The translations under genes were made by a program, and so were the position numbers. From the NCBI RefSeq assembly GCF_000011005.1, contig NC_013665.1, positions 1,589,501-1,653,500 on the forward strand: a stretch of 64,000 bases of DNA, given 5' to 3'. The notes under the pieces are model-generated. The model saw only the letters and a list, made by a program, of their open reading frames with translations, did no database searches and had not been told where the DNA came from. Origin of the DNA: Methanocella paludicola SANAE (lineage in GTDB: Archaea > Halobacteriota > Methanocellia > Methanocellales > Methanocellaceae). Shown here piece after piece: positions 17,808-35,579 of this stretch. Numbering within the stretch: the stretch's first letter is position 1; each line of letters starts with the position of its first letter.

Positions 17808-19076
17808 TCAGTTAGGTATCTTTATTGCCCACCCAAAAGGCACGTCCTTCTCGCTTATCCCGTCCGGACTAAGCACCCAAATCACTTCGTAAGGTTGACG
17901 CTCGCCGAAATCAGTCTCGCCATCCGTTAGACAAACAACGAGCCTTGCTGTGGGCTTATTCTTATTAATCCACTCCCATACAGGCACATGCGAAGTACCA
18001 CTACCGCCTTTTGGTTTCCACTCTAGCAAACGGTGAATGTCATGCTCGCTGACCGTGATTGAATCCTCCACCGCGGCACTATGGCATAACAAAGTCATAT
18101 TCAGCCCATGATAGCTTCGGCCAATGTTTACGGCCTCACTCATGAATCTGGTTAAAGTATCCCGGTCTATGCTCGGGCTGGTGTCTATAGCGACGATGAC
18201 ATCGCATCCCTCCCGGATAACAGAAGGCAGGTATGTACCGCAGGCGATACTTTTTTTGCCCGGTCGCCTATACGTGAAATCAAAGGGCAGTTTGTTCGTT
18301 ATGGCCCGGCGAAGCAAAATACGCCAATCAACCTTTGGGGGTAATAGCTTTTCTATAAGGCGTTCTATGCCCATCGGAAGAGCGCCGCGGCTCACCGCGA
18401 AGTTTCTTGCTTCAACCATCATTTCTTTACAATTAGCTTCTATTGCACTCGCCTCGGCCTCGTCCCCTTCACTTATGTAGATGTGTTCATCCAGGCCCGC
18501 TCCGCTCTCGCCTGTCGGCCGGCCGTTTTCATCGGTTTCAATAGCATTTTCGGGCTCGTCCTGCCCGGAGCTGTCGGCTTTTCCATCATCCTTATTTTTT
18601 ATATCATCATTGACCGTTGCCGCTGCCAGCATAAGCTCTTCGTAAACCTCTTCCGCTGATTTCTCGTCCAGGCCATCGATTTTTATGGGCTGGCCGTTAA
18701 GCATGGTCTTATAGGTATGGTTTTTCGGGAGTATCCCGCACGCAGGGAGCTTCATGCCCGCCGACAGCAGTATATCGTTTACTACCATGTCTGCAGCAAT
18801 GTTAAAGAGGCGTTTATCCTTATTCGCCATACGGATCATATGGCATAAGCCGTAGTGCAGAGCCTCATGTATGATGAGCCCTTCGACCTCTTTATCGGTC
18901 ACGGAGTCCACGAACGCCGGGTTATAGTGGACCTGGCCTTTATGATCAACGCCTATTGTCGGTAATTTACCTTCTTTAAATTCCAGGTGCATGACGAGAT
19001 AGCAGAAAAAAGGCTGAGATTGCTGCAAATGTACAATGCCCTTCGTGATCTTTTCGCCCGAGGTTAGATCCTGCAT
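17808..19076 (-). CDS. DUF2201 protein: metallopeptidase-like + VWA domain
   Basis: The N-terminal half contains I-I-H-E-A-L-H-Y-G-L-C-H near residue 70, an HExxH-type zinc site, and D-M-V-V-N-D, as in putative metallopeptidases of DUF2201. A disordered acidic linker (residues ~160-210) joins it to a C-terminal VWA-like domain with D-V-I-V-A-I-D-T-S-P-S-I as MIDAS and L-T-D-G-E-T-D-F-G later. Such proteins pair with MoxR ATPases, which remodel or activate protein complexes. The gene begins 16 nt after the MoxR gene stop and has GGCGGAAAC before its ATG, so they form an operon. Confidence 0.8.
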   Translation of the reverse strand: MQDLTSGEKITKGIVHLQQSQPFFCYLVMHLEFKEGKLPTIGVDHKGQVHYNPAFVDSVTDKEVEGLIIHEALHYGLCHMIRMANKDKRLFNIAADMVVNDILLSAGMKLPACGILPKNHTYKTMLNGQPIKIDGLDEKSAEEVYEELMLAAATVNDDIKNKDDGKADSSGQDEPENAIETDENGRPTGESGAGLDEHIYISEGDEAEASAIEANCKEMMVEARNFAVSRGALPMGIERLIEKLLPPKVDWRILLRRAITNKLPFDFTYRRPGKKSIACGTYLPSVIREGCDVIVAIDTSPSIDRDTLTRFMSEAVNIGRSYHGLNMTLLCHSAAVEDSITVSEHDIHRLLEWKPKGGSGTSHVPVWEWINKNKPTARLVVCLTDGETDFGERQPYEVIWVLSPDGISEKDVPFGWAIKIPN

Positions 19077-19092
19077 GTTTCCGCCTTGCCTC

Positions 19093-20193
19093 TCAGTTGA
19101 GGTATTTACCGTACCTCTCCGTAAATTTATCCAGATCCACTGCAGCGACCAGTTCCCTGGTAAAATTCTTGTTCATGCCCTTGATGGTCCGGTACATCCA
19201 TATACTGTATTCCGGCCGCATATTATCAGCCACGGCCGCTATCTTACTGAGCTTTTTCTTATTAGCCCGGTACTTTTCAATGAGCCCGCCAGCCACGCCA
19301 AATAGTAGCTGCGGCTCGGTTATCCTGGTCACTTCGTCCGGGTGGTCAAGAATATTATCCAGGTCTACATTATCGTACAGCTTTACATGTGCTGTAAATT
19401 CCACGGCTGTGGCCTCGCCCACAGCGCTCTCGGCGATCATCCTTATCTGTTCATAATCCTTAAGGCCGCTAATGCACCTGGATAGCTTCTCCCATGATCT
19501 CGGCGTCGGGAAGGAATATTCACCATCGAGGCCCGGCTTATACAGCAATGAGGGCTTAAACTTGATGAAGGCGAGCACCCTGGAATCGATACCGTGCCCG
19601 GCACCCCATACTGTCCAGTCATCGGCGTTAGGCTGAGCCAGCTTGACGTTAAGGAACCTGTTACGGAGCGGGTATGGTATCTCGTACACGGCCGCCCTGT
19701 CCGTGATGTCGTTTCCCGCAGCGACCACGTAAACGCCATCCGACAGGTGGTTTTCTCCGATTTCCCGGTCGTTCACGATCTGGTAGAACATACCCTGTAT
19801 CGACGGCGGGGCCAGATTAAATTCGTCCAGAAATAGTATGGCCTTCGTTTCCGGCATGCACATGTATGCATATACCATCGGAATGCACCACTCGAATCCA
19901 CCGTTCTCGTCGAACCTGGGCAGCTTAAAGTCGCCCAGATCCAGCATGAGAGCCCGCTGATCAACGAAGGTGAAATATTTAGACGTGTGAGCCATTACCT
20001 CTAGCTTTTCGCACTTTGGAATGTCATTCCATGCCATGAATTCCCGCTGTGCCCTGGCGGCGCACTCCATCGCGAATTCCTTTATGGTTTCCGACTTGCC
20101 GATGCCGATGCCGCCCCTTACGTAGAGGGGCTGTCCATTGTTATAAGAGATTTCCAGCACGGTCTTTAATCCGTTGTGATTTATATCGCTTAT
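19093..20193 (-). CDS. MoxR-family AAA+ ATPase
   Basis: Walker A reads G-G-I-G-I-G-K-S-E-T, Walker B is A-I-L-F-L-D-E-F-N-L-A, sensor 1 is V-V-A-A-G-N-D-I-T-D, and an arginine-finger segment (P-L-R-N-R-F) follows. This is the AAA+ core of MoxR/RavA-type ATPases, which act with VWA partners; the next gene supplies one. The first accepted start codon in frame is GTG at 20160, leaving only ~15 residues before Walker A. Coding similarity extends upstream (D-Y-I-S-D-I-N-H-N-G-L-K-T-V-L) to an ATA at 20193 that lies 9 nt after GGAGG, with a stop before it. I therefore favour the longer form. Confidence 0.85.
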   Translation of the reverse strand: MSDINHNGLKTVLEISYNNGQPLYVRGGIGIGKSETIKEFAMECAARAQREFMAWNDIPKCEKLEVMAHTSKYFTFVDQRALMLDLGDFKLPRFDENGGFEWCIPMVYAYMCMPETKAILFLDEFNLAPPSIQGMFYQIVNDREIGENHLSDGVYVVAAGNDITDRAAVYEIPYPLRNRFLNVKLAQPNADDWTVWGAGHGIDSRVLAFIKFKPSLLYKPGLDGEYSFPTPRSWEKLSRCISGLKDYEQIRMIAESAVGEATAVEFTAHVKLYDNVDLDNILDHPDEVTRITEPQLLFGVAGGLIEKYRANKKKLSKIAAVADNMRPEYSIWMYRTIKGMNKNFTRELVAAVDLDKFTERYGKYLN

Positions 20194-20278: not shown

Positions 20279-20419
20279 TTAATCGTACCTGTAAACAAAT
20301 GCCGGGCATTCATCGTCTTCCGTAAAGGCGAGAAGCTCCAGGGCAGGTAAAACGCTTACTTCACAATATGCCTCGTCGATGAAATAGAGACAATGGTAAC
20401 AGCATTTTAGTATTAGCAT
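20279..20419 (-). CDS. small Cys-rich protein, 46 aa, intact copy
   Basis: It runs from ATG 20419 to TAA 20279. The N-terminus is L-K-C-C-Y-H-C-L-Y-F, followed by E-A-Y-C-E-V-S-V-L-P-A-L-E-L-L-A-F-T and D-E-C-P-A-F-V. Five cysteines and a histidine suggest a metal-binding knuckle. The frameshifted relative at 11837-11978 shows mostly synonymous differences, the best evidence that this is a true protein. Both copies sit just upstream of, and divergent from, a TPR gene, with conserved hairpins between. Function unknown; a zinc-binding regulator or adaptor is one guess. Confidence 0.6.
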   Translation of the reverse strand: MLILKCCYHCLYFIDEAYCEVSVLPALELLAFTEDDECPAFVYRYD

Positions 20420-20465
20420 TTGATCTTTCGCCTGGCCTCTGTTTCACGTGTTCATGTGTTATTAT

Positions 20466-20545
20466 GGCCACGTTACCCGAGGATGGAGTAACGTGGCCTG
20501 TCCGGCCCTTTCGATAACACCATTATGGTAGATAATGGGAGGTGA
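20466..20545. other. tandem conserved hairpins, copy 2
   Basis: The 11-bp stem GGCCACGTTAC / GTAACGTGGCC (20466-20498) is followed by CACCATTAT / ATAATGGGAGGTG. Stem sequences are kept relative to 12019-12097 while the first loop has changed, which supports a structural role. Confidence 0.45.
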
Positions 20546-20775
20546 AAGCTGTTTGCTTTGGGCCGGTTGTTGGTCGTACCCGATTCACGAGCCGCCCGGT
20601 GGTGATAAGATATGACATTTGGTGATAAGCTATGATACACATTTACCGGACGGTTCGTGTACTACCCATTAAGTAGCTTTTAGTATAAATAATTAACTTA
20701 TTACATAAAAAGTTGTTATATTACAAGCATTTACATTATAATAATACATAATAATCGGTCGAAATTTGAACTATT

Positions 20776-21404
20776 ATGGACAAGCAGATCATTCATTCAG
20801 AGGATGAATAGTGGTCATGAACAGGGCGAACTTCATCCACTGGAAGGATATGATCGACGAGTTGATCGCGGAATATATGAGGGCACTGGAGCTCGACCCC
20901 TATGATGCTATGGCGCATTTCAATCTCGCAATTGCCCACCAAGATAAGAATATGCTGGAAGAGGCCATCGGCGAATATAAAATGGCCCGGGTACTGAACC
21001 CGTATGATTTCAAGGTGCAGAATAATGACGGGGCGCTGCACCTGAACAAAGGCAGGATGTATGACGCTTTGCTGTAGTTCCGGGAGTCGGTCAGGCTGAA
21101 CCCGAATGACTATATATCGCATATGAACCTGGGCGTGACGTTGATCAAGAAGGATATGGTCGATGATGGGCTTAAGGAGCTTGAGAAAGCTATTGAGCTG
21201 AACCCACAATATGCCGATGCATACTATGAGCTCGGATCGTTCTTTGAGAAGGCCCAGGATGTAACAAAAGCCCGGGGGGCATATGAGAGCTTCGTGAAGT
21301 ATGCCTCAAAAGATGATGAAAGAGTTGAGCGGATAAGCAAGCATTTAGTTGAGATAAAAGAAAGAGAGGATGCTGAGAAAAAGGGGGAACAAGTTTACCA
21401 ATAA
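20776..21404 (+). pseudogene. decayed TPR gene (internal deletion, frameshift and nonsense)
   Basis: It begins like the 805-residue TPR gene (M-D-K-Q-I-I) and within 12 codons joins sequence matching that gene near codon 603, losing about 600 codons, with a stop at the junction. A later TAG at 21075 replaces a glutamate codon (context L-L-E-F-R-E-S-V in the parent). The remaining frame continues to 21404, ending G-E-Q-V-Y-Q. Open stretches remain at 20811-21077 and 21123-21404, but no complete protein can be made. It directly borders the AT-rich defence island. Confidence 0.8.
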
Positions 21405-21516: not shown

Positions 21517-22539
21517 ATGGTAATATTGAATATTAACTATCCGCTATTGGATCAAAAACCTGAAAAAAGATTGCTATTTTTGAACACGATAATAGATGTT
21601 ATTCGTTCTGACCATCCTATAGTTTTAAATAAAATTTTAACTGAATCTGATATGAATACTTTTTTGAAGATAATTAATTCTGCGTATAAAGATGTATTTA
21701 TTATTGATAATTATTCCTTATCAAAAAAAGGGATATTAGATGGTGAAATTGTTTTAGGTTTAGATATTCTATTCAAAGATATTCAAGATAAAAAGTTAAA
21801 TCCGTTTAACCAAATTCCGAGTATGGAAAATAAAGATGATTCTATATTATTAAAAAGGGTTGATTTAACATTAAATACTTTAAAAAATTATATCTTAAAT
21901 CCGGGATTTTTTAATTTATGGCTTTTTAAATATTTTGATAATATGTTTATACCATATAACAATACCGGATATACAATATATAAAGCATATTTTGATGAAA
22001 TGAAAATCGATGAAGTTAAAACATATTTTAGATCTGAGTTAATCGCTTCTGAAATTAGAAGATTACAAAAAAGAGAAAGTAATAACCAAATTAGCCATAC
22101 AGATTGTGTTCATGTTATTGAATTTGTAAATGAATTTATGGAAACCCTGGATATTAGAACAAAAGAGTATCAAGCAGACAATATAAAAAAATTGATAAGT
22201 GAGTTAACTGATGGCAGATATGATAGCGAAGAAGATACTAATAATTTAACAAAAGATAAAATTCTATTATTAGTCGATGACCAAGTTAAAAAAGGTAGAG
22301 TAATAAGTCATTATAAAAATGCGCAAGTACTGTTCATAGATAGTAATGTGATAACTCGATCTTTAGGACCACGATATTTAGTGGTTTCACAAATGTTAAA
22401 AAAATTTGACTCTGCAAATTTAATAATTGTCGAACCTTTAAAAATTGTTGGAATTCAAGAGGCAAAACAATTATTAGAAGAAGGAATTGATGCAGGACCA
22501 TCGGTCGATGCAGTTAATGAATATTTGTCGAAGTGTTAG
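21517..22539 (+). CDS. unknown first gene of the PglZ-helicase cassette, 340 aa
   Basis: I do not recognise a family. The sequence is helical and Lys/Asn/Ile-rich, with a C-terminal segment that looks like a small alpha/beta domain (K-I-L-L-L-V-D-D-Q-V-K-K-G-R, A-Q-V-L-F-I-D-S-N, A-N-L-I-I-V-E-P-L) and could be receiver- or PIN-like; that is only a guess. Codon use is strongly AT-rich, as in the next three genes. It ends 3 nt before the PglZ gene, so the cassette is one transcription unit. There is no convincing Shine-Dalgarno site; a TATA-like TTATATTTA lies about 25 nt upstream, so the mRNA may be leaderless. Confidence 0.65.
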   Translation: MVILNINYPLLDQKPEKRLLFLNTIIDVIRSDHPIVLNKILTESDMNTFLKIINSAYKDVFIIDNYSLSKKGILDGEIVLGLDILFKDIQDKKLNPFNQIPSMENKDDSILLKRVDLTLNTLKNYILNPGFFNLWLFKYFDNMFIPYNNTGYTIYKAYFDEMKIDEVKTYFRSELIASEIRRLQKRESNNQISHTDCVHVIEFVNEFMETLDIRTKEYQADNIKKLISELTDGRYDSEEDTNNLTKDKILLLVDDQVKKGRVISHYKNAQVLFIDSNVITRSLGPRYLVVSQMLKKFDSANLIIVEPLKIVGIQEAKQLLEEGIDAGPSVDAVNEYLSKC

Positions 22540-22542
22540 ACG

Positions 22543-24399
22543 ATGTTTGAAAGTAAAAAAATCGATATTGTAAATGAGTTCCAGGATATACGAACAGTAT
22601 TACTTTTAAGATTACGGGAAGGAAAAATCACTCAAGATGAGATATCACAAATAACTTTTTATTTAAAATCACCCAGGGAGACTCTAGATATCAATAGAAG
22701 GGATATTGGTAATCAGGAATTAATAACAGAGGATATTAACTCTTTGAGTAATAAAAAATTGATCCTATACACATTAATTAAGTTAAACCAATACTATAAA
22801 AAAGACAAAGAAGAATATATCAGGGTTTGTGTCGATGGGCAAAGCATCGTTTGGGAGAGCGTTTTTAATTCGGCAGAAAAAATAATCCAGATAAGAAATC
22901 GATTACAGTCTATTGATAATGATGCTTATGAGAATGATTATGTAAAATCAAACAAAATTGTTAGAAAGCACTTAGCACTTCTTGCAGAATCTTATAAAGA
23001 GTTATTACTATTCGAGAAGCAGATGGGTATAGACCGTTATCTTGCCACATCTGGGCTTAAGGATATTAAAATATTGCATGATATGGTAACAGAAACGCGT
23101 AAAATTTGTAACGATAAACTCAATAATTATATTAATATTTACCAAGAAAAATGGAATCTAACATCTGTATCATTGTGTATTAAAAAGATGTTCAATCCGA
23201 AAATATATGATTCGGCAGTAACATCCTGCATGTATTCAGACCAGCAAAGAGTGATCTATGTATTATTGGATGGCTTTGGATATTCTCAATATTTATGGTT
23301 GTCTAATGGTTTAAAAGAAAGAAAAAGTACTACATTTGGTATAAATCTATTTGAGTGGTTACAAGGAAAAGATGAGTACAATGATAAATTAATACTAGGT
23401 TCGACATTAATTACGGATACAGGTGCCGCGTTAACTACTATATTCACGGGGCTGTTACCTGTAGAAACTAGAGTTATATCATCTAAAGTATATAATGGTA
23501 CATTAAACGATAAAGAAAAGATTGCGGATGTAAAAAGAGTAGCAGAAGGGGGGTTATCAAGATATATTGGAAAGAAACCTGAAACGTTTCTGAATCATAT
23601 CAAAGATATCCAATTTAATATACTTAGTGCAACCAAATCTAGTAAGGTCACTAGTGATTTTACTAAGATGCTATATGGTGACAATAATGTTGTTAATATA
23701 GACCCTTCCGACCGTTTGTTCAAAAACATTGTTAAAACAATTGTTAATAATAAAAAGCAATTGATTATTGCTTATTATCCATTAATCGATCACTCTGGCC
23801 ATACAATAGGTTCATTTACATCTTTTGAATCGTATGAGTATGAAAAATTGAACTTATTACTTGTGGAATTTATGCTTGACCTTGCGAAAAATAAAAAAGA
23901 AATTTTTGATGGTAAAACAACTATAATATTTTCAGCTGATCATGGGATGTTTGAGACGTCGTCCAAATATATAACTAAAAAAGAGATAAAAGAGGAATTT
24001 GAGCATAGTAAGCTTAAATCGCCGTATATATCTGTTAGTAATCGATGTCTACTCTTTTATGATATAAATAGGATGGATCTCGAAGAGTCATACTCTTTAA
24101 TAAAGGGGTTATTAGAGAAAAAGGGTATTCCGAACAGAATTTATAGGTATAATGATCCTATTATAGAAAAGTTGCTTTGTAAGAAAAATGAACCAATTGA
24201 CTATAGGGCACCAGATATTGTTTGTCTTTTTAGTGATGAAGGAATTGCTGTACCGTTTAAAGATATAGATGAAACAATGCTACATTATGGCGGGCATGGT
24301 GGATGCAGTAGTGAGGAAGTATTCGTTCCATTTATTACCCTCCGATTAACAGAGCGTCTATATGAAGATTTAACAGGTTATTTTTCCAAATTAGGATAG
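22543..24399 (+). CDS. pglZ: PglZ-domain alkaline phosphatase-superfamily protein
   Basis: After a helical N-terminus (~230 residues) come the metal-binding and nucleophile motifs of the alkaline phosphatase superfamily: V-L-L-D-G-F-G (~240), I-T-D-T-G-A-A-L-T (~290), D-H-S-G-H (~415), F-S-A-D-H-G-M (~463). The C-terminal Y-G-G-H-G-G-C-S-S-E-E-V-F-V-P (~582) is the hallmark closing motif of PglZ proteins. PglZ is the shared core of BREX and Pgl phage-defence systems, where it is needed for methylation and exclusion; its substrate is still unsettled. At 618 residues it is shorter than BREX type 1 PglZ. Neighbours are a helicase-DUF1998 protein and two unknown proteins, not BrxC/BrxL. Confidence 0.85.
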   Translation: MFESKKIDIVNEFQDIRTVLLLRLREGKITQDEISQITFYLKSPRETLDINRRDIGNQELITEDINSLSNKKLILYTLIKLNQYYKKDKEEYIRVCVDGQSIVWESVFNSAEKIIQIRNRLQSIDNDAYENDYVKSNKIVRKHLALLAESYKELLLFEKQMGIDRYLATSGLKDIKILHDMVTETRKICNDKLNNYINIYQEKWNLTSVSLCIKKMFNPKIYDSAVTSCMYSDQQRVIYVLLDGFGYSQYLWLSNGLKERKSTTFGINLFEWLQGKDEYNDKLILGSTLITDTGAALTTIFTGLLPVETRVISSKVYNGTLNDKEKIADVKRVAEGGLSRYIGKKPETFLNHIKDIQFNILSATKSSKVTSDFTKMLYGDNNVVNIDPSDRLFKNIVKTIVNNKKQLIIAYYPLIDHSGHTIGSFTSFESYEYEKLNLLLVEFMLDLAKNKKEIFDGKTTIIFSADHGMFETSSKYITKKEIKEEFEHSKLKSPYISVSNRCLLFYDINRMDLEESYSLIKGLLEKKGIPNRIYRYNDPIIEKLLCKKNEPIDYRAPDIVCLFSDEGIAVPFKDIDETMLHYGGHGGCSSEEVFVPFITLRLTERLYEDLTGYFSKLG

Positions 24400-24407
24400 G
24401 TGAATTT

Positions 24408-27400
24408 ATGGTTGATGTATATTATTCGCACATAATGGATGACTCTCTTAAGAGCATAAAAAATCCTGAAATCTATAATGTTGATGGAAAAATTATCGAT
24501 TTATTGAAAATGATAAATTCAAAGCATCCAGGCTTTTCCAATTCTATAATAGATACAAATAATAAAATCCATTCTCGTGTCCGCGTATATAAAAATATTA
24601 TTTTTGAGGATGGGCGTATAGCAGATAGCGATAAAACTGTTTATGTAAATGATATTAACGATAATATTTCAAACACCGATAATATATTATTTTCTATATT
24701 CGATGCAGAAAAATTTAAAGAATTAATAAATCAAACTTTATTAAAATCTGATCAAAAATTTACTTATCGTAGTGTAAAAAGCCAGGGCATATCAAAGAAA
24801 GACTATAATATATTCATAGATGATGTAAAAGGCCCTATAAAGGAATCCATAAAAAAATTTAAAAATGGCGACTGCACATTAAAAGATCTTAAGGTTTCTG
24901 ATGGACAACACATCAATATTAGATTAAAGGAATCTGAGGATCCATTTGATCGTTTTGACAGAAAAGGATCCAAATTGTTACCTTCACCGATAATTAGTGC
25001 CATATCGAAAATTTGGGGATTTAACGAAGAAGATTCAAGATTATACTTACACCAAGAAGATTCATTGTTCTTCATACTTAGTAAGCTAGAAAAACCACAG
25101 GACATCAATAAAAGTTGTTTACTACTGTCTATCCCGACTGGTGGAGGTAAAACAGAAGCATTTCTGATACCGATAATTGCCCATATTTACGATGATAAAT
25201 TAAAAGATATAACAAGCGGATATGAGCCGTTATCCAAAGTACGAGCAATAATCACTTATCCGACAAAAGCACTCGCAAATGACCAAGCGAATCGTATCGT
25301 TGAAATATTAAATGAAATAAATAGGCAAGCAATACCACATCAACAAATTACCTTAGGTATATTAACAGGGGATACACCAAATCCCCAAAAACTCTATAAA
25401 GATAATCCTATTCAGCTTTGTCCAGAATGTAAAGAGTCAAACTTTGAGTACATAATTTCTGATTCTGAGAATGGAAAAAAGTTATACACAATGAAATGTA
25501 GCCATTGTGGACTTGAGATTAGATTCGTGCGGCTTACAAGGGAGGATATAATCACATCACCTCCAGATATTCTCATTTCGAATCTTGATATGATTAATGT
25601 CTGTCTGCAGTCGCCTAAATATAGAAATATTTTTGAGCAAAAAATCGATTTGATGGTATTTGATGAGTTCCATCTATGTGAGAGTATATACGGATGCCAT
25701 GCTGGACATTTGTTGAGAAGACTGGAAGAAGCATCTGGAAATAAACCATTGTATATTGGTGTAAGCGCGACTATTAAAAATGCAGAAGAAATTGCTTCAT
25801 TGGTATTTAATGTAGACAAAAAAGACATTTTGTTCTTATCGGATAAGAATCGTTCTTATCTTATAAATGATGAGAATAATCGCTATAGGTATCATTACGC
25901 AATTGTACCATATAATTATAAAGAAAATAGGTTCATGCAAGTCGTAACTACAACATTAAATACTGTCGAAGTGCTAGGTCATTCAATTAATGATCCACAT
26001 TTCCGTAAAACTATTGTTTTTACTAATTATCGGCATGATACTGATAGCTTAGTAAGAAATCTAAAAGGAAACGAGACTAAGTACTTTAGAACATATAAAG
26101 AGGACGTATTTCCAAAGATTGAATCTGATGTACCACTTGATAAATCCGATGAAAGAGTCGGAAGATATGTTGGTAAATGGTATGACTATTTAAAGCAAAA
26201 TGGCATGCTGAATGATGCTATTCTAGAAATTGGCTGGCATAGAGGCGGTTTGGAACCAGAGGAGCGTATTAAGTCAATCACGAAGTTTACCACAAGTAAA
26301 ACGACTAATTGGAGAGGCAGGGAACAGTTAAGCCCGATAGATATAATGATGGCAACCAAAACGCTCGAACTTGGTATCGATATTGGCGATGTAAGCAATG
26401 TTTTTAATTCGTCGGCACCGTTCACAGTGAACGAATATGTTCAGCGTATTGGTAGAGGTGGCCGAAAGAAAGATTCTATAGCTGTAACGGTAATCGACCC
26501 GACAAACGCTATGGATTATTATTTCTTAAATGAATTCGAAAACTTTGCTAAACCTGAAAAAAGGGTCTATGAAGATGCCCCGATTCTCATATCTAATCAA
26601 AGTATTGTCGATATTCATTTAACTGCAAGAATACTGGATTTTATAGCCAGTGAACTCCGGTCAAGATCAATTAGCGATAGGCCGATAATAACTATAGAAA
26701 ATATTAAAAAAATAAAAATATCGTATAAAGGAGAACAGATAGATCTAGTTAATAATCCAAAAATATTTGCTGAGGTTATATTAGATTCGACCATTAACAA
26801 GATAATTTCTATAAGCGACGAAACAAAAACAAAATCAATAACATCTTATATGGAATGGTTTGACAGAGAGCAAAAAATTCTTAACACGAATAAATATAAT
26901 GCATCTGTAGAACAAATTAAAAAGGTAATTATTGATAAATGTGTTGAAATTGCTGATAAAATAAACCGCGGAATAGTTAAAGATCAAGATATTATTAGTG
27001 GTCCTGGATCTAAGATTAGCGATTTAGTACCAAATATGAGAGGAGCGGGTTATACCTGCCATATGATGTTAATAACTGGCAAAGAGGACGCAATAAAAGA
27101 TGCAATCGGAAGAATACAGGTCCTCTCGCACCATCCATTGGGTGGATTCGCTACACAAGGTGCAAATAGTTATAAGATCGATAGCCTTGAAAGAGATCCC
27201 ATTATTGAGTTAAAAATTAAAAGGCTGCTAAACATTAATGCAAAAGCGTTTGACTTTTATAAAAAACAGTTTGGAGAATCATTCCCTGAAGACGCTATAG
27301 CCCTAGATGTACAGACACCACTGAATATTAAGGTTCGTTATTATCCCTACCGATTTTATTGTCCTAAATGCGGTAGGACATACCTTAAGCCTACGGACGA

Positions 27401-28700
27401 GGGTAATCGTTGTATCAATTGTCATACCGAACTTGCCCAGATAAGTGAAGTATACAGATGCAGGAACTGTGGTGAAATTTATGAACCACCAGTGCCAAGA
27501 GTTTGTATGAATCCAGCGCATATTAGAAGAGAAACTGAATTTATGCAATCTATGAAATCTGAAGCAAAGTACGATAAGTTTGCATTCAGATCATTACCTG
27601 GGTTATACTGGCAATGCAAAGAATGTAAAAAAGTATTCAATTATCATGATAAGAATGGTATAGATTTGCCAAAAGAATTTATGAGGAAAAAATTTGATAA
27701 AAATCTTGATTTTGACATTCCAGAAGACGTGGCAAAATTATATCAGTATAGGCCTGAGGCTAAGTTAATTAACCGAACAGAATATTTGAGTAATGGCTAT
27801 AACTTGCCAAGATATACTTGCGGAAAATGTGAAAATAAAAGATTTGATAGTGTAACAGCTGTTGATCTACCGAATACTAGAACAGTATTGCTAGAATATC
27901 TTATATATAAAGATGAATTAATGTCCCCCGAGACTGCGAAATTCGGATCGGTAGACTTTAAATCGGTAGATGTAATATCACTTGGAAGGGAATATGTTAC
28001 ACGATTTATTAGCTCAAATGGATACGAATTAAAGATATATGATATATTTCCAAAAGATATTGGCCAATACAGCTATATGGGTAATGTATTTTCCACACAT
28101 TCTATAGGTATAAAATTCTTACCTGGACTGCTAGATGAATTCATTTCCACTCAGCATTTTTGTATTAATGGTAGCTGTTCAAATTGTGAGAATATAGTAA
28201 AATTAGATAGCGCAGAGATGACTAGACCAACGCTTGATTTAAAAGATTGGGAACGCCAGAAAAAGCCGGATATAAGGCGTAAATGGTGCGAAACAATAAA
28301 AGGAATAGTATGCGATAATGCAGATTGTACATCATGTGCAAAATTTGATAGAGAAGCATATCTTAGATATCTTCTCCTACATACTATCAAACATGGAATA
28401 ATATTATCTATGCCAAAATATACGGGCATCAATAAAAATGAAGTTCGAGGTATTATATATCCTAATGATGAATCATCGCCTGAACTTGCATTTCTGGATT
28501 CCCACGAAAGTGGTTCAGGATCAATATATTTAGCGAAAAGAAATTGGGAACAGATATGGGAACTCTCAAAAGAGCTCATACAAAATGCGAGAGACAATGA
28601 AGGCACGTTGTTATTGCCTAACTTCTGCTCGAGATATAATGCAGACTTATGCCCGTTTTTAGCAGCGGAATTCTATAAATTTTTAGATAAAAGGCGATGA
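24408..28700 (+). CDS. SF2 helicase with zinc ribbons and DUF1998-like C-terminus, 1430 aa
   Basis: Helicase motifs: I, I-P-T-G-G-G-K-T-E-A-F (~242); Ia, Y-P-T-K-A-L-A-N-D-Q; II, V-F-D-E-F-H (~416); III, V-S-A-T-I; V, T-K-T-L-E-L-G-I-D-I-G; VI, Q-R-I-G-R-G-G-R (~680). A zinc ribbon (C-P-E-C ... C-S-H-C) is inserted between Ia and II. C-terminal to the helicase are several Cys clusters (C-P-K-C-G, C-I-N-C, C-R-N-C-G, C-K-E-C, C-G-K-C) and a terminal region with D-S-H-E-S-G-S-G-S like the DUF1998 module of MrfA/YprA and DISARM DrmB. It looks like DrmA-type and DrmB-type functions in one chain. AGGTGA precedes the ATG. The likely role is moving along foreign DNA to expose it to partner activities. 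Confidence 0.85.
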   Translation: MVDVYYSHIMDDSLKSIKNPEIYNVDGKIIDLLKMINSKHPGFSNSIIDTNNKIHSRVRVYKNIIFEDGRIADSDKTVYVNDINDNISNTDNILFSIFDAEKFKELINQTLLKSDQKFTYRSVKSQGISKKDYNIFIDDVKGPIKESIKKFKNGDCTLKDLKVSDGQHINIRLKESEDPFDRFDRKGSKLLPSPIISAISKIWGFNEEDSRLYLHQEDSLFFILSKLEKPQDINKSCLLLSIPTGGGKTEAFLIPIIAHIYDDKLKDITSGYEPLSKVRAIITYPTKALANDQANRIVEILNEINRQAIPHQQITLGILTGDTPNPQKLYKDNPIQLCPECKESNFEYIISDSENGKKLYTMKCSHCGLEIRFVRLTREDIITSPPDILISNLDMINVCLQSPKYRNIFEQKIDLMVFDEFHLCESIYGCHAGHLLRRLEEASGNKPLYIGVSATIKNAEEIASLVFNVDKKDILFLSDKNRSYLINDENNRYRYHYAIVPYNYKENRFMQVVTTTLNTVEVLGHSINDPHFRKTIVFTNYRHDTDSLVRNLKGNETKYFRTYKEDVFPKIESDVPLDKSDERVGRYVGKWYDYLKQNGMLNDAILEIGWHRGGLEPEERIKSITKFTTSKTTNWRGREQLSPIDIMMATKTLELGIDIGDVSNVFNSSAPFTVNEYVQRIGRGGRKKDSIAVTVIDPTNAMDYYFLNEFENFAKPEKRVYEDAPILISNQSIVDIHLTARILDFIASELRSRSISDRPIITIENIKKIKISYKGEQIDLVNNPKIFAEVILDSTINKIISISDETKTKSITSYMEWFDREQKILNTNKYNASVEQIKKVIIDKCVEIADKINRGIVKDQDIISGPGSKISDLVPNMRGAGYTCHMMLITGKEDAIKDAIGRIQVLSHHPLGGFATQGANSYKIDSLERDPIIELKIKRLLNINAKAFDFYKKQFGESFPEDAIALDVQTPLNIKVRYYPYRFYCPKCGRTYLKPTDEGNRCINCHTELAQISEVYRCRNCGEIYEPPVPRVCMNPAHIRRETEFMQSMKSEAKYDKFAFRSLPGLYWQCKECKKVFNYHDKNGIDLPKEFMRKKFDKNLDFDIPEDVAKLYQYRPEAKLINRTEYLSNGYNLPRYTCGKCENKRFDSVTAVDLPNTRTVLLEYLIYKDELMSPETAKFGSVDFKSVDVISLGREYVTRFISSNGYELKIYDIFPKDIGQYSYMGNVFSTHSIGIKFLPGLLDEFISTQHFCINGSCSNCENIVKLDSAEMTRPTLDLKDWERQKKPDIRRKWCETIKGIVCDNADCTSCAKFDREAYLRYLLLHTIKHGIILSMPKYTGINKNEVRGIIYPNDESSPELAFLDSHESGSGSIYLAKRNWEQIWELSKELIQNARDNEGTLLLPNFCSRYNADLCPFLAAEFYKFLDKRR

Positions 28701-28705
28701 TATAA

Positions 28706-31700
28706 TTGTATGACTCGAAAGGCCTAGATGCGAAAGAACTAATTAAAAAAATAAATGAATCCATCGCAGAAGATTTAGAACAGTTAGCGGATGAAAGGCC
28801 TATTCAACAAAATTTTTCGAATAATTATTCAGATCTTCAAATAGCATGCCAATATATAACCAATCATGAGAGCAATAGTATTTTTTCGAAATTAGAGAAT
28901 AACATTTTATTAGCATATTCAATTGAAATTTCCAAACGCTTCTGTACTAGTTTTTGGAGAGAATTTTTCGAACAATTGAACATGGATGAGAATTCTTATA
29001 AACAAGTGAAAATTCATGATAATTTATGTAAACGACTTGATCAGATTGGTATCCAAGTAGAGAAAAATAAACAAGGATCGAGATTACTTGTAGGTACATT
29101 AAGATTATTGACAGAGGCTAATATTAAACCAGCAATCGATTTTTGTATAAAATACTATAAAAATTATTACTTAAAAAATCGTAAGGAAAAATTTCATGAT
29201 ATTTTTAATTTATATTCCCATGATACAAATGAGTATGAATTATATGAAGTGGTTAATGAAAAATTAACTAAAATCTTTGATTATATCAAAGACAATATTG
29301 ACATAATTGATATAGATAACGATGAAGATGTGGTAGAAAAAATAAAAAATAACACAAATATTAACATAAAAAATATAATAAGGGCCAAAATTTCCACACT
29401 ATATAGTGAAATTTTTAACAATTATACACCAATACAATTTAAAAGTATATTGAGAAACAATCGAGATAATAATGTAATATGTCCTGACACTAAGACCGTA
29501 AAATGTGGTTCACTCGAAGATGCAATCATCGATTATGGGGTATATTCAATAAATGAAAATGAATATACAATAACGCCTAGTATAAAGATAAGTATTAACG
29601 ATATGGCTCAATGGCCATGTTGTGAAATATGTAACAAAAATGGATTATACTATTATAAAAAAGATGAAGAATTTAGTGTGTATAAGGGTAATATACCTCA
29701 AATGGTCAGAGCATTTGTAAATAATGGTGAAAAACAATTCATTTGGTGTGGAAATATAACAGTAGGCGAAGAGTACCTGGTAGATGGAATAAGCTATCGT
29801 TCCGAGGGATTTTCTTGGAATCCTGATTTAAAAATGATGTGGGGACAAAACAATGAACTTCCATTTTTACAAATTGAAATCCCGAAGATAGCTTATTATG
29901 ATGAAAATAACTCAAGAAAAAAGATTCAAATTAATATAGAAGACGAAATCAAAGAGTTAAAAATAGGTAGCGACGGAAGTTTAGTACATAAAAATTTTTA
30001 CTTTAAAATAGAAAAAATGTTAAAATCAAACAAGTTTTCAATAAATATGTCTGCTTCAATTAGAGATAACGATTTCCATCGTAACCAAATTATTGATTTA
30101 GAAGACAATATGCTTTTTTCTGGTAGTACAAGAAATCGGATAGTATCTCAATATGCTCGTAATGAAAAGATAAAACGTAATTTTGGAGATGATCGTTATT
30201 ATCTATTCACAATAGCTGACAAAGAGGATATAATTGTAAAAACATCAATCGAGGATGCCAAAGTAGAAAAATCTGAGGATGAAGAAGAGTATGAATTAGA
30301 ATCCATTACATATCTTGGCGATCTATCAAGGTACCATATTTATGAAATCGCTTGGACTTATGGTGATAATTTAATAATCAAAGCCGGAAATTGTAATTGG
30401 AAATTTGAGAGAAAAAGTTTTTTAGAATGGCAATTTGAAAGCCCTGATAATGTTTTTTCATCTATTAGCGATATACAGATAAGCGGATTTTGTAATTCAA
30501 ATAATGACCTAGAGGATGGTTTATATTATAGGATCCTTGATGACAATTATGATGAGATCAGTAGATTTGCCGATAATGGTGTAACAATAAATGGTCTTCA
30601 CTTTTATATAAATGGTAAAATTATTTTAAAAGATTGTGCCATTGATAACAATCTAGAAGAAGGAGAATATGTGTTTGAAATATTGGCAGAGAGTACTACT
30701 TATTCAAAAAAATTTTATATTGTCCCAAAAATTTTCCCAATATCTTGGCCGTCTATGCTCATTGAGGGTGAAAAATCAGTTGTTAGGATAGAATCAGATC
30801 ATCCTGTGATCATAGACCCGGTTAGTAACAAAGAAGTAGAAAGAGTTGATTTTGAAATTTATGGTAAAGCTATTGAATCTTCTCTTGATGGTTTAATTAT
30901 AGAAGAAGCCCCAATTTCCGTAAAAGTGGGCTTTAAAAACCCATCTGTAATTAGAACGTTTTCACCATTAAAAGTACCATATCTATTCGCATATAGACTA
31001 TACCGTAAGGATAAGAAGTCATTAAACCTCATAAAAGAAGCAGAATATAATAGCTTAGAGGATACAATTTTATACGTCTATGGAATCCCCGATATGTTTG
31101 TAGTATTAAAAATCGATGGTCAGCATTATAAAAGCAAACGTATTGATACAAAAGGATACGTAAAATTTGATGAATTAAAGGACTTATATCGGTTTTGTAA
31201 ATCGAGTGAAACATCGGTTTCTATTTGTCTTCAGTATGATTTAAACGCGCATACAGCCGTAGTTGCGCATAAAATATTTAAAGTTATATGGAACCCAGAA
31301 ACACTTTCGATTGCTCATGATGAAGTTTATTTAGGTAATAATATTAAAGCCAACATATGCAGTAAAGGGCCAAGTGATAAAAAGATCACAGTTATGCTCA
31401 GGACCCCAACGATGTTGCTGGAAAAGCAGGATATACAATGTACAGGTAAGGAAGAGTCTAATGAAATTTGTTTCAAACTAGAAAAAAAAGTTGAAGATAC
31501 ATTCCTATATCTTGAAACCTATTATTCATACAATGATATTTTACTTAAATCAAAATATGCCATTATAAATAATGGACTAATTATTCCAATAGAAATCGAG
31601 AACGGTGCAAAGACAATTATTTCTGTATCTGATTTTTATAAGAATATAATCAGTATTGTTCAGGATATATTATATCAAGAGCACAAAACTATTATTCGAT

Positions 31701-32092
31701 TAAGTAATACATCACTTAATAAGATTCAACTAATGATTTTGAATATTTTAATTGCATTAGATTCGAGTTATGATGTTGTAATTCCGGATAGCGCTCGATA
31801 TATGTATTATTCAGAAATTAAAAATATATGCGGCCGAGAAAATTTAATTGTATTAAAGAATAGCGCCATAATAGATAAAGTCGAAAATGTTTTATCATTT
31901 AATATTCAACAACAATCACCAGCTGGCATCGGCGCATCATCAATTAATCTTTTAGAAAATACCGAGTACATATTTTCTAGGCCTTTGATATTCATTGATT
32001 GTCAAGATCTTAAGCTGGAAGATAAGAAAGCCATTTTAGAGTATCATGGCAAGAGAAAAATCATAATGATTGAAAAAAAGATAAAAACATAG
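28706..32092 (+). CDS. large beta-rich unknown protein of the PglZ-helicase cassette, 1128 aa
   Basis: No known family is recognisable. Residues 1-240 are helical. Around residue 305 there is a possible zinc site (W-P-C-C-E-I-C-N-K-N-G). Residues ~320-960 are a chain of beta-sandwich-like segments (repeated G-x-Y-x-F/I-x-I patterns such as E-E-G-E-Y-V-F-E-I-L-A-E). The last ~130 residues return to alpha/beta (T-I-I-R-L-S-N-T-S-L-N-K-I-Q-L-M ... P-L-I-F-I-D-C-Q-D-L). Start TTG at 28706; the ATG slightly upstream stops at once. It starts 5 nt after the helicase stop and closes the operon. Its size and lack of enzymatic motifs suggest a structural or sensor component; this is inference. Confidence 0.7.
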   Translation: MYDSKGLDAKELIKKINESIAEDLEQLADERPIQQNFSNNYSDLQIACQYITNHESNSIFSKLENNILLAYSIEISKRFCTSFWREFFEQLNMDENSYKQVKIHDNLCKRLDQIGIQVEKNKQGSRLLVGTLRLLTEANIKPAIDFCIKYYKNYYLKNRKEKFHDIFNLYSHDTNEYELYEVVNEKLTKIFDYIKDNIDIIDIDNDEDVVEKIKNNTNINIKNIIRAKISTLYSEIFNNYTPIQFKSILRNNRDNNVICPDTKTVKCGSLEDAIIDYGVYSINENEYTITPSIKISINDMAQWPCCEICNKNGLYYYKKDEEFSVYKGNIPQMVRAFVNNGEKQFIWCGNITVGEEYLVDGISYRSEGFSWNPDLKMMWGQNNELPFLQIEIPKIAYYDENNSRKKIQINIEDEIKELKIGSDGSLVHKNFYFKIEKMLKSNKFSINMSASIRDNDFHRNQIIDLEDNMLFSGSTRNRIVSQYARNEKIKRNFGDDRYYLFTIADKEDIIVKTSIEDAKVEKSEDEEEYELESITYLGDLSRYHIYEIAWTYGDNLIIKAGNCNWKFERKSFLEWQFESPDNVFSSISDIQISGFCNSNNDLEDGLYYRILDDNYDEISRFADNGVTINGLHFYINGKIILKDCAIDNNLEEGEYVFEILAESTTYSKKFYIVPKIFPISWPSMLIEGEKSVVRIESDHPVIIDPVSNKEVERVDFEIYGKAIESSLDGLIIEEAPISVKVGFKNPSVIRTFSPLKVPYLFAYRLYRKDKKSLNLIKEAEYNSLEDTILYVYGIPDMFVVLKIDGQHYKSKRIDTKGYVKFDELKDLYRFCKSSETSVSICLQYDLNAHTAVVAHKIFKVIWNPETLSIAHDEVYLGNNIKANICSKGPSDKKITVMLRTPTMLLEKQDIQCTGKEESNEICFKLEKKVEDTFLYLETYYSYNDILLKSKYAIINNGLIIPIEIENGAKTIISVSDFYKNIISIVQDILYQEHKTIIRLSNTSLNKIQLMILNILIALDSSYDVVIPDSARYMYYSEIKNICGRENLIVLKNSAIIDKVENVLSFNIQQQSPAGIGASSINLLENTEYIFSRPLIFIDCQDLKLEDKKAILEYHGKRKIIMIEKKIKT

Positions 32093-32131: not shown

Positions 32132-32644
32132 TCAGAATCCTCTTATCTTGCACTCTTCATCAATGACTTTCCAAGGTTTACCTTTACTTTCATCAGCCGC
32201 AATTTTGGGTGGTACATTTTCTAATAGCACACGATGTACACCAAGCCGTTTTATCCTCTTTCCAAGCTTTGTCCAACGTTTGTTCTCTTCGGCAACCATT
32301 GCCATATAGAGAACAGATAACCAAATTTCCATTTCAAGGGAGTCTTTATTATATTTTGATGAAATGGTGCTAATTAATGAAAAAGCCTTAGTGCTAGTCT
32401 TTAAATCACTCGTCGTAATATCATATATTTTAACAAAATCATTATAAATTGTATCAGGCCCATAGATATTGGCTGAATCCCGTAAAAATTTAAAATATTG
32501 TGTGTCTGTGGGAGGATACCAAGGAATTCCTATATTTGGTCTCTTTAATCTTACCTGCCAACGATCAAATCCCCCCTGAAAATAATCCAAAGCACTTCCA
32601 TCAATAAACTCTTTAAAAGAGCTATTGTTTGTTTCCTCGGACAT
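32132..32644 (-). CDS. hypothetical protein in defence island, 170 aa
   Basis: I do not recognise it. It is mainly helical with a conserved-looking core F-L-R-D-S-A-N-I-Y-G-P and a segment E-I-W-L-S-V-L-Y-M-A-M-V-A-E-E-N-K, followed by a basic patch (K-L-G-K-R-I-K-R-L-G-V-H-R) and a Lys-rich end. Codon use is AT-rich like the island. It is convergent with the four-gene cassette and divergent from the HAD-like gene. It may belong with the methyltransferases as an accessory or restriction subunit, but no nuclease motif is visible. Confidence 0.6.
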   Translation of the reverse strand: MSEETNNSSFKEFIDGSALDYFQGGFDRWQVRLKRPNIGIPWYPPTDTQYFKFLRDSANIYGPDTIYNDFVKIYDITTSDLKTSTKAFSLISTISSKYNKDSLEMEIWLSVLYMAMVAEENKRWTKLGKRIKRLGVHRVLLENVPPKIAADESKGKPWKVIDEECKIRGF

Positions 32645-32788: not shown

Positions 32789-33145
32789 ATGGCGATATTT
32801 GCAATAGATTTTGATGGTACGATTGTAATCGATAAATACCCAGGGATAGGGGAACCTATTCCCGAAGCTATCGATACAATAAGAGAGATAAAAAAATTAG
32901 GCCATAAAATAATAATTTGGTCATGCAGAGTTGACCCCCAGCTCTCGGAAATGCGTGATTTTTTAATTTTTAATAGGATACCTTTTGACCATATTAACGA
33001 AAATTGCCCGGCAAAGATAGCCTACTACAATAATGATACTAGAAAAATCGGTGCGGACTACTATATTGACGATAAAATGATTGGGACTTGGACCTGGCAG
33101 GATGTTCTCTCAATAGCAACTAAGTATGCTAACAAGAAAAATTAA
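32789..33145 (+). CDS. small HAD-superfamily phosphatase-like protein
   Basis: This 118-residue protein begins I-F-A-I-D-F-D-G-T-I-V, the HAD nucleophile motif (D-x-D-G-T), continues with I-I-W-S-C-R near 45 (motif II position), and ends with Y-Y-I-D-D-K-M-I-G (motif IV). It lacks a cap domain, so it should act on an exposed or polymeric phosphate. Similar mini-HAD proteins are frequent in phages and mobile DNA, where they may dephosphorylate nucleic-acid ends or nucleotides. The gene is upstream of the Dam-like methyltransferase on the same strand and shares its AT-rich composition. Confidence 0.75.
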   Translation: MAIFAIDFDGTIVIDKYPGIGEPIPEAIDTIREIKKLGHKIIIWSCRVDPQLSEMRDFLIFNRIPFDHINENCPAKIAYYNNDTRKIGADYYIDDKMIGTWTWQDVLSIATKYANKKN

Positions 33146-33166: not shown

Positions 33167-34114
33167 ATGGTAAGCATGCAATTAACACTAACAAATAAAG
33201 AAATCACCAATGCAAAGCCTTTTTTAAAATGGGCAGGCGGTAAAACACAATTACTTGAAGATCTTGAAAAACGATTGCCACAACAAATCATAGCCGATAG
33301 GATTATCGAAAACTATGTAGAGCCATTCGTTGGTGGAGGCGCTATGTTCTTTTATCTAAAAAAGAACTTCAATGTTAAGAGCGCTTATCTATTTGATATT
33401 AATCCCGAATTAGTATTGGGTTATACCACTATAAAAAAGAGCAATAAAGAGCTAATAAGAATCCTACACGATATGGAAAATGAATATCTTAGTAAAAACG
33501 TAACTGATAGAAGCGTATATTTTTATCAAGTCAGAAATTCGTACAATGAGGAAGATAAACAATTCGACTATAAAAAATATAGTGATAAATGGATAGAAAG
33601 GACAGCCAAGCTTATCTTTTTAAATAAAACATGTTTTAACGGATTGTTTAGACAAAACAGCAAAGGCGAGTTCAACGTTCCTTTTGGAAAATATAAGAAC
33701 CCGACGATATGTGATGAAAACAATATCACCGAAGTTAGCAGAGCTCTTAAAGGTGTATCGATAATTTGTGGAGACTTTGGGAAGACTTCTAGGTATATAC
33801 AAAAAGGAACGTTAGTTTATCTTGATCCGCCATATAGACCACTAAATAATACATCAAGTTTTACCGACTATTCAAAAGATGGTTTTGGCGATGAGGAACA
33901 AAAAAGGTTAGCTATGTTCTATAAAAAAATGGATAAAAAAGGTGCGTATCTAATCTTAAGTAATTCTGACCCGAAAAATGAAAATCCAAACGATAACTTC
34001 TTTGATGAACTTTATCGTGGATATAACATTAATCGAGTAAGGGCTAATAGGATGATTAATTGCCAAGCAGAGGGAAGAGGTTATATATCAGAGTTAATAA
34101 TAACTAATTATTAA
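33167..34114 (+). CDS. Dam/DpnM-family adenine DNA methyltransferase
   Basis: F-L-K-W-A-G-G-K-T-Q near residue 18 (motif X), Y-V-E-P-F-V-G-G-G-A-M-F-F (motif I, SAM binding) and L-V-Y-L-D-P-P-Y-R near 216 (motif IV) show an alpha-class N6-adenine methyltransferase of the Dam/M.DpnII family, often GATC-specific; specificity cannot be read with certainty. The first ATG is 33167, though ATG 33176 with GGATGG upstream is equally plausible. It is complete at ~315 residues. No clear partner endonuclease adjoins it, so it may modify host DNA for the island's defence system or be a solitary methylase. Confidence 0.85.
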   Translation: MVSMQLTLTNKEITNAKPFLKWAGGKTQLLEDLEKRLPQQIIADRIIENYVEPFVGGGAMFFYLKKNFNVKSAYLFDINPELVLGYTTIKKSNKELIRILHDMENEYLSKNVTDRSVYFYQVRNSYNEEDKQFDYKKYSDKWIERTAKLIFLNKTCFNGLFRQNSKGEFNVPFGKYKNPTICDENNITEVSRALKGVSIICGDFGKTSRYIQKGTLVYLDPPYRPLNNTSSFTDYSKDGFGDEEQKRLAMFYKKMDKKGAYLILSNSDPKNENPNDNFFDELYRGYNINRVRANRMINCQAEGRGYISELIITNY

Positions 34115-34126
34115 AGAGGAATTACT

Positions 34127-34942
34127 ATAAACAATAAAATTAAAAATAAACAGCCCCTTACTTTAAATCCAAGTAATTTCAAACCAGAATATTCAACCCT
34201 TTGGTCTTTTCCAGAAAGAGGAGATTGGGCTACACATTCGCCTGATTATAGGGGTAATTTTGCCCCTCAAATTGCGAGAAATATTATTTTAAAATATTCA
34301 AAAGAAGGAGACGTTGTTTTAGACCCTATGGCGGGCGGGGGAACAACACTTGTCGAAGCTAAGTTACTCAATAGAAGGGGCATTGGTATTGATATTAACC
34401 CTAAATCTATTGAGTTAATAAAAAACATCTTAAATTTTGAATCTGAATCAAAATATGAACCCGATGTCAAAATTGGAGATATTAGGAATTTAGGAGATAT
34501 CAATGAAAATAGTATAGATTTAATTGTTACGCATCCACCATATTTGAATATCATAAAATATTCTGAAGGCAAAATAGAAGGCGATCTTTCTAATATTTCG
34601 AGTCTAAAAAAGTTTTGCGATGAACTAGAATTAGGAATAAAAGAATTTTATCGAGTTCTAAAAGAAGACTCTTATTGTGCAATTTTAATAGGTGACACAA
34701 GAAGAGCGAAGCATTACATTCCGCTATCCTATTATGTCATGCAGAAATTTTTAGATAATAATTTCGTGCTTAAAGAGGATATTATCAAAGCTCAACATAA
34801 TTGTGAATCTACACCATACTGGAAAGGGCAAGCAAAAAAACTGAATATTTATTTAATAGCGCATGAGCATTTATATGTATTTAGAAAACCTCGAGAACAT
34901 GAAGATTTATCGAGACTGAGATATAGTAGAAAAATAAATTAA
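34127..34942 (+). CDS. DNA methyltransferase (N4-cytosine/N6-adenine type)
   Basis: D-P-M-A-G-G-G-T-T (SAM-binding motif I, ~residue 66), I-D-I-N-P-K-S, and V-T-H-P-P-Y (catalytic motif IV, ~134) identify an amino-methyltransferase acting on DNA. The N-terminal W-S-F-P-E-R-G-D-W-A-T-H region is essential to the fold and lies upstream of the first ATG (34328). The real start must be further up, where AGAGGA is followed 6 nt later by ATA at 34127, with the previous gene's stop just before. This is one of three apparent ATA starts in the window. It is convergent with, and 1 nt from, an unknown gene that could be its restriction partner. Confidence 0.8.
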   Translation: MNNKIKNKQPLTLNPSNFKPEYSTLWSFPERGDWATHSPDYRGNFAPQIARNIILKYSKEGDVVLDPMAGGGTTLVEAKLLNRRGIGIDINPKSIELIKNILNFESESKYEPDVKIGDIRNLGDINENSIDLIVTHPPYLNIIKYSEGKIEGDLSNISSLKKFCDELELGIKEFYRVLKEDSYCAILIGDTRRAKHYIPLSYYVMQKFLDNNFVLKEDIIKAQHNCESTPYWKGQAKKLNIYLIAHEHLYVFRKPREHEDLSRLRYSRKIN

Positions 34943-34943: not shown

Positions 34944-35579
34944 TTATAAGGTTGATTGTCCGTCATTTTTCAAATACCATAAAGGTTTAAGGTTCGGTTG
35001 ATATCTCCTATTTTTCTTATTTTCTTTATCGGTATATTGAGAGGTTGGCGGCTGAAATCTCGCAACGCTCATACACATATTATCAATCTCTTTAGGATTG
35101 TCAATAAATTGACGAATCCATCCCTGATAAAACAAATTTTTAGGATCAAAATTGCTCTCTCGTGTATAATTTAATTCTTGCTCGATCAAAAACAACTGAG
35201 ATAAACATGCTATTGTTTTAATTGAATTTAGATAATGGGGGAATTGTTCATTATCAAAAACCCTAACTTCTTCTAATGGATCGCTGCCATAAAATATATT
35301 GTCAAAAGCCATTAATAATTTATTTTTTAAGTCTGGCCTAGCTCTTACCCTTAAGTTCAAATCAATAAAAACACGTAGATGATTTGGTTTAAAGTTTCTA
35401 TAATGATGATTTAACCATATTTGAAAATTCTTCTTTACATCATACTCATTTCTGAGCGACCCGGGCAGAACAGAAGGCCGTATTACATAAAGTTCGGCAT
35501 TATCATTATCAATGTTAATTGTTGATTTCTTATCGAATTCGAGCTTTTCAATTTTAGCCAACAATTCATTTTTCTTCAT
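34944..35579 (-). CDS. unknown protein convergent with the DNA methyltransferase, 211 aa
   Basis: No family is recognised. It is a mixed helical protein with basic and aromatic patches (F-Q-I-W-L-N-H-H-Y-R-N-F, H-L-R-V-F-I-D-L-N-L-R-V-R-A-R-P, W-I-R-Q-F-I-D-N-P) and a Lys/Asn-rich tail. Its tight tail-to-tail packing against the methyltransferase (1-nt gap) and shared AT-rich codon use are typical of type II restriction-modification pairs, so a restriction endonuclease is possible. I cannot point to a definite PD-(D/E)XK, HNH or GIY-YIG active site, so this stays a hypothesis. Confidence 0.55.
   Translation of the reverse strand: MKKNELLAKIEKLEFDKKSTINIDNDNAELYVIRPSVLPGSLRNEYDVKKNFQIWLNHHYRNFKPNHLRVFIDLNLRVRARPDLKNKLLMAFDNIFYGSDPLEEVRVFDNEQFPHYLNSIKTIACLSQLFLIEQELNYTRESNFDPKNLFYQGWIRQFIDNPKEIDNMCMSVARFQPPTSQYTDKENKKNRRYQPNLKPLWYLKNDGQSTL

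Follow-up and report, generated by a model that had tools for sequence, protein, structure and literature searches.

The four-gene cassette

We analysed a window of 64,000 nucleotides from the genome of the methane-making archaeon Methanocella paludicola SANAE, which is a single contig of 2,957,635 bases (G000:C1:1589501-1653500; positions below are counted from the first letter of this window), and focused on four open reading frames (ORFs) that appear to form a rare relative, so far undescribed, of known virus-defence systems. The ORFs lie on the forward strand, exactly where the original prediction had placed four tightly packed, AT-rich genes: gene 1 (A; 21517-22539, 340 amino acids), gene 2 (B; 22543-24399, 618 amino acids), gene 3 (C; 24408-28700, 1430 amino acids) and gene 4 (D; 28706-32092, 1128 amino acids, TTG start). 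They are separated by gaps of 3, 8 and 5 bases over a total span of 10.6 kb, with a GGTGA ribosome-binding-like site 5' of gene 3. The four genes have a GC content of 0.26-0.34 (0.18-0.27 at third codon positions, GC3), as against about 50% in the surrounding sequence and 0.50-0.54 in the genes to the left. The composition profile and the per-gene GC and GC3 values outlined a larger AT-rich block (about 30-33% GC, approximate edges 21410 and 35800), in which 2-kb windows from 22 to 36 kb have a GC content of 0.30-0.35 and the genes range over 0.26-0.36 (GC3 0.18-0.36). A horizontally acquired four-gene operon is the best explanation of the cassette, put forward with the same evenly balanced confidence as the functional reading given below.

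To judge by its sequence, gene 3 encodes a YprA/MrfA-family helicase. It matches PF00270 (DEAD; 1.8e-18) and PF00271 (Helicase_C; 2.5e-13), its best PDB sequence match is YprA/MrfA (6znp, 3e-12), and residues 1328-1393 match the MrfA zinc-binding (MZB, DUF1998) family PF09369 at 1.9e-5 (25.7 bits, cut-off 24.2). RecA1 spans residues ~200-480, with an inserted C4 zinc knuckle and a DEFH box at ~419-422, and RecA2 residues ~600-760; the C-terminal half is cysteine-rich. Nine CxxC-type zinc pairs were found, of which two make the RecA1 knuckle, where several relatives carry CxxC too. Both traits of the family, a superfamily 2 (SF2) core and a C-terminal MZB end, are therefore present, and the single chain of SF2 helicase, zinc pairs and DUF1998-like end that had been predicted was recovered. 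The top PADLOC models for gene 3 are all defence-associated: DpdJ (2.3e-40), SngC (2.5e-31), DrmA (1.3e-30) and DruE (1.1e-28). In view of the Pfam, PDB, PADLOC and NCBIfam matches and the CxxC pairs, calling gene 3 a fused DrmA/DrmB-like motor is correct at the family level. The fusion alone is not unusual, since YprA proteins typically carry the OB-CON-DUF1998 part and the core in one chain, whereas DISARM, the defence island system associated with restriction-modification, has them as separate proteins (Bell et al. 2025, PMC12458937).

Gene 2 starts with ~225 residues of no recognised kind, followed by an alkaline-phosphatase-superfamily catalytic domain that matches PF01663 (type I phosphodiesterase/nucleotide pyrophosphatase, NPP) at 1.1e-13, with 52 bits against a cut-off of 23. 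The PglZ family model PF08665 did not match gene 2 at E<=1, nor did the bacteriophage exclusion (BREX) PglZ models of PADLOC and NCBIfam; in a whole-genome search at E<=0.01, PF08665 found nothing in this genome and had matches in 55 of 187 genomes of the phylum. The nearest relative found for gene 2 is a PF01663-type protein of 390 amino acids from an Asgard archaeon (L112; 26% over 333 amino acids). Residues D243, T293/T298, D416, H420, D466, H467 and H585, the last within an HGGxSxEE motif, are invariant between the two, and from general knowledge of the superfamily we take them to be the metal ligands and the region of the nucleophile threonine; on this alignment the predicted catalytic residues of gene 2 are shown to be intact. 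The HGGxSxEEvxVP end of gene 2 is common to PglZ proteins and to L112 and is thus not diagnostic of PglZ. Gene 2 scored about equally with small in-house profiles built from NPP-type and from PglZ proteins, and a single-sequence AlphaFold model of the catalytic domain was too poor for use (predicted local distance difference test score, pLDDT, 32). We therefore regard gene 2, on these matches, as a PF01663-type enzyme of the alkaline phosphatase superfamily that is PglZ-like in layout. Because the curated PglZ models fail, the original label of PglZ-domain phosphatase was kept at superfamily level alone: kinship with the superfamily and the active-site residues stood, membership of the PglZ family did not.

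Genes 1 and 4 had been described as two uncharacterised subunits, a description that holds, as comparison with Pfam, NCBIfam, PADLOC and PDB sequences gave no significant match for either. No Walker A motif occurs in either protein; gene 4 encodes 20 cysteines, and the single-sequence AlphaFold model of gene 1 (pLDDT 35) was too poor for use.

The best reading of these data, to which we give an even chance, is that the cassette is a defence system of the YprA-helicase type with a phosphodiesterase effector. We count in its favour the tight one-strand gaps, the foreign composition, the closeness of the helicase to defence-associated models and the intact residues of gene 2. Also in its favour are the RecA1-RecA2 spacing and RecA1 zinc knuckle of gene 3, which are more like those of Dpd-type relatives and of relatives of the type found on a Thermoprotei contig (L032) than like those of long proteins spanning ~900-1130 amino acids, and the nuclease activity reported for PglZ of Type I BREX (PMC12205998).

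Comparison with described defence systems

No described layout of BREX, BR, BRC, DISARM, Dpd, Druantia, ARMADA, BRIGADE or TALON corresponds to that of the cassette. The claim that it is unlike BREX or DISARM was upheld, and profile searches with Pfam, NCBIfam and PADLOC did not place the four genes in any described BREX, DISARM or related subtype. With the YprA-helicase systems (DISARM, Dpd, Druantia, ARMADA, BRIGADE, TALON; PMC12458937) it shares a YprA motor with a DUF1998/MZB end, encoded in a multigene operon. It differs in having no recognised gene for a PLD (phospholipase D) or PD-(D/E)xK nuclease, for BrxHII or PglX, or for deazaguanine; instead, the cassette has the alkaline-phosphatase-superfamily enzyme and two proteins of no recognised family. 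While DISARM has separate DrmA and DrmB proteins and the PLD nuclease DrmC, motor and MZB form one chain in the cassette, and none of the four genes has a PLD match. No member of the Dpd set (DpdA, preQ0/7-deazaguanine genes, DpdG, DpdH, DpdK) was found among the genes of the block, the rest of the genome not having been searched for DpdA. Gene 3 also appears to lack the large RecA1-RecA2 inserts (BrxA-like, beta-barrel, MarR-like) of ARMADA, Druantia, BRIGADE and TALON: its spacing is ~510 amino acids, against ~900-1130 amino acids in the long relatives that we took to be of these types.

The rival explanation that survives best, though still unlikely, is a derivative of DISARM or Dpd in which the PLD nuclease was replaced by the phosphodiesterase and the modification genes were lost or replaced by the adjacent methyltransferases. 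DpdJ and DrmA rank among the best matches of gene 3 in PADLOC and NCBIfam, its spacing and its RecA1 zinc knuckle are Dpd-like, and two methyltransferase genes lie 1-2 kb from the cassette. However, the NCBIfam matches listed are all under their cut-offs, and far so for DpdJ (123.8 of 800 bits) and DrmA (47.5 of 950 bits), the block has no recognised DpdA, DpdG, DpdH or PLD gene, and gene 3 falls outside the four-member Dpd group in a tree of helicase cores (0.996 local support). Because this tree used query-anchored columns and its deeper splits are weak, we read it only as placing gene 3 outside the sampled groups.

With BREX and the related BR and BRC systems (Rakesh and Krishnan 2026, PMC12839542), the cassette shares a PglZ-like, alkaline-phosphatase-superfamily enzyme beside large proteins. 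For the PglZ of PorX and that of Type I BREX, phosphodiesterase or nuclease activity is reported (PMC12839542, PMC12205998), the latter being described in PMC12205998 as a metal-dependent nuclease. Gene 2 resembles both in the superfamily catalytic layout and the HGG end and differs in matching PF01663 rather than PF08665 and in its N-terminal part. A BREX, BR or BRC system so divergent that its PglZ and other parts can no longer be recognised would account for this layout and for the HGGxSxEEvxVP end, and also for genes 1 and 4 having no recognised family; proteins of the BrxB type reportedly evolve fast (PMC12839542). We consider it improbable nonetheless. BrxC (NF033441) is absent from the whole genome at E<=0.01, the same model having matched in 3 of 14 control genomes; besides the failure of the PglZ models, no DUF499, DUF6079 or HerA match occurs in the four genes, the helicase is of the YprA family, and Walker A motifs are missing from genes 1 and 4. 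Nor is a PglX-type methyltransferase encoded among the four genes, those nearby being of the D12 (Dam) and N6_N4 types.

Equally improbable is an operon for DNA repair or the processing of nucleic acids, in which an MrfA-like helicase and a housekeeping-type pyrophosphatase sit on a mobile island and have no defence role. One main branch of YprA proteins consists of repair-related helicases (PMC12458937) and gene 2 is nearest to NPP-type enzymes, but the patchy presence, the foreign composition, the extra zinc modules, the better scores of gene 3 with defence-type helicase models and the conflict-type genes nearby all argue against it. We consider it very unlikely that four foreign genes came together by chance, given that they are closely spaced on one strand over 10.6 kb and uniform in composition.

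Relatives in other genomes

An alkaline-phosphatase-superfamily enzyme was found beside a YprA helicase at two other loci, both haloarchaeal, one in Natronosalvus (L051:2956-14246) and one in a genome of the same phylum (G161; L144:5928-17125). Both carry a five-part set of PglZ-like protein, winged helix-turn-helix (wHTH)-like protein, AAA ATPase, YprA helicase and separate MZB protein, with pairwise identities from 28% (PglZ) to 50% (helicase). PADLOC labels the first protein PglZ in both, and no PLD protein was recognised among the members tested. QueD/QueE/QueC-type genes adjoin both sets, DpdA and GTP cyclohydrolase genes the second only. The cassette has in common with these loci the combination of a PglZ/alkaline-phosphatase-superfamily enzyme and a YprA helicase in one operon, with MZB in the set; it differs from them in that they have Que genes (and DpdA in L144), an AAA ATPase, a wHTH-like protein, MZB as a gene of its own and a PglZ that, unlike gene 2, is matched by PADLOC. 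The two loci pair this enzyme superfamily with a YprA helicase independently of the cassette, and the main texts of PMC12458937 and PMC12839542 do not describe their arrangement. Since BLAST scores against gene 3 show no special kinship of these helicases with it (134 bits for L032, 127 for L051, 117 for L010, 110 for L144, and 108 for L011 and DpdJ), the pairing common to them and the cassette may be convergent. On the Thermoprotei contig (L032:1705-14730), genes for an Lhr-like and a YprA-like helicase and a type IIG-like methyltransferase occur together with a neighbour whose end is PLD-like, an archaeal arrangement that we judged by eye to be DISARM-like.

Further copies of the cassette were sought, at thresholds of 1e-20 to 1e-30, with genes 3 and 4 in 394 genomes of the phylum, and with gene 3 alone in 4 genomes of the class, 399 of the phylum of Clostridium, 198 of that of a Thermodesulfobacteriales metagenome-assembled genome (MAG), 201 of that of a Dehalococcoidia MAG and 177 of that of Sigynarchaeum. 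Plasmid and phage searches gave helicase-domain matches only, or none, and scans of viral contigs with genes 1-4 and with an alignment of gene 2 and L112 found no relatives. A helicase-motif scan of ~85,000 genomes returned, among the matches listed, helicase-domain relatives only, none of which was accompanied by a convincing match to gene 1 or gene 4; also among the matches listed, the sole alkaline-phosphatase-superfamily neighbour of a helicase relative was that in L051. Genes 1 and 4 had no convincing match among the ORFs of the helicase-relative loci that were fetched.

Several of these results weigh against a YprA-type defence system with a phosphodiesterase effector. No second cassette was found in roughly 1,370 genomes of five phyla, the phyla other than its own having been searched without a known positive, so that a conserved association of the four genes is not shown. 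Gene 3 is not particularly close to the haloarchaeal helicases that accompany PglZ, the curated PglZ models do not match gene 2, and genes 1 and 4 showed no link to DpdG, DpdH or DpdI in one hhalign profile test, which had poor settings and degenerate alignments. The survey of co-occurrence suggested by the original prediction, in which the four genes stood together in the source genome only, speaks neither for nor against their travelling together; the cassette is likely to be rare.

Neighbouring genes and proposed function

Downstream of the cassette, the AT-rich block continues with a minus-strand DUF7004 gene that converges with gene 4 (32132-32644; PF22539, 7.6e-53), and, on the plus strand, with genes for a BT0820-like HAD phosphatase of 118 amino acids (32789-33145; NF046079, 1.4e-26, under the model cut-off), a Dam-family (D12 class) adenine DNA methyltransferase of 315 amino acids (33167-34114; TIGR00571, 1.7e-86; PF02086, 2.3e-58) and an N6/N4-type DNA methyltransferase (from 34121 or 34127 to 34942). 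The last matches PF01555 at 5.9e-29 with its upstream extension and at 3.8e-16 without it. As the family match runs upstream of the first ATG, which opens an ORF at 34328, and the upstream frame reaches an ATA or ATT preceded by a ribosome-binding-like site, its start is either non-canonical (ATA or ATT) or lost or decayed. A gene for a protein of 211 amino acids with no Pfam, NCBIfam or PADLOC match (ORF211; 34944-35579, minus strand) marks the right edge of the block.

The two methyltransferases that had been predicted to follow the cassette are present, beginning ~1.1 and ~2.0 kb past gene 4, but their place within it did not hold up. The opposite-strand DUF7004 gene intervenes, which makes them a separate transcription unit; we therefore set them aside as cassette members, though this is not disproved and the membership of the Dam-family enzyme in the system is uncertain. 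Common acquisition with the cassette is possible, as they lie in the same AT-rich block.

Directly left of the cassette ends a decayed partial copy, with an internal stop, of an upstream tetratricopeptide (TPR)-repeat gene (12318-14735) and its leader (20280-21404, plus strand; repeat families D1, D4, D5 and D6). Elsewhere in the window, genes for metallo-beta-lactamase-fold, DUF2130 and CARF (HFX_2341-like) proteins stand in a row on the plus strand (6027-9915), the CARF protein scoring 548 bits with the PADLOC CARF model. A MoxR-like AAA and VWA (DUF2201) pair with a third gene of no recognised kind lies on the minus strand (16794-20160), and at 37355-38276 a nucleotidyltransferase is paired with a HEPN protein, as in toxin-antitoxin modules of the MNT/HEPN kind.

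The pairing seen in L051 and L144 and the nearby MNT/HEPN pair, MoxR-like/VWA pair and CARF protein were also counted for the defence reading. Family and context point to a role in phage defence, and we infer joint action of the four genes and cutting of nucleic acid by gene 2. The cassette would encode a nucleic-acid-targeting defence complex of motor plus effector, in which the YprA/MrfA motor with its fused MZB/DUF1998 end would bind invading DNA, translocate on it and hand it to the effector. Gene 2 would be this effector, a metal-dependent phosphodiesterase that nicks or degrades DNA, and would fill the place of the PLD nucleases of DISARM and Dpd and of PglZ in BREX. Genes 1 and 4 may act as adaptor or sensor and as scaffold, serving sensing and assembly. 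That the nearby methyltransferases set self apart from non-self, by self-marking, is a guess.

More tentatively, and with somewhat less confidence than in a defence role of the YprA type, the cassette may be the first example seen of a defence type of its own, made of a fused YprA-MZB motor, an NPP/PglZ-like phosphodiesterase and two previously unseen subunits, and working without an AAA ATPase, a PLD nuclease or obligatory DNA modification. If this is true, the YprA-helicase systems would gain a branch with a phosphodiesterase effector. Two families that surveys have handled apart would also be joined: the main text of the YprA survey nowhere mentions PglZ (Bell et al. 2025, PMC12458937), and YprA, MrfA and DUF1998 are all absent from that of the PglZ/BREX survey (Rakesh and Krishnan 2026, PMC12839542). 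Together with the loci of Natronosalvus and G161, the cassette suggests that alkaline-phosphatase-superfamily enzymes have been recruited beside YprA motors more than once.

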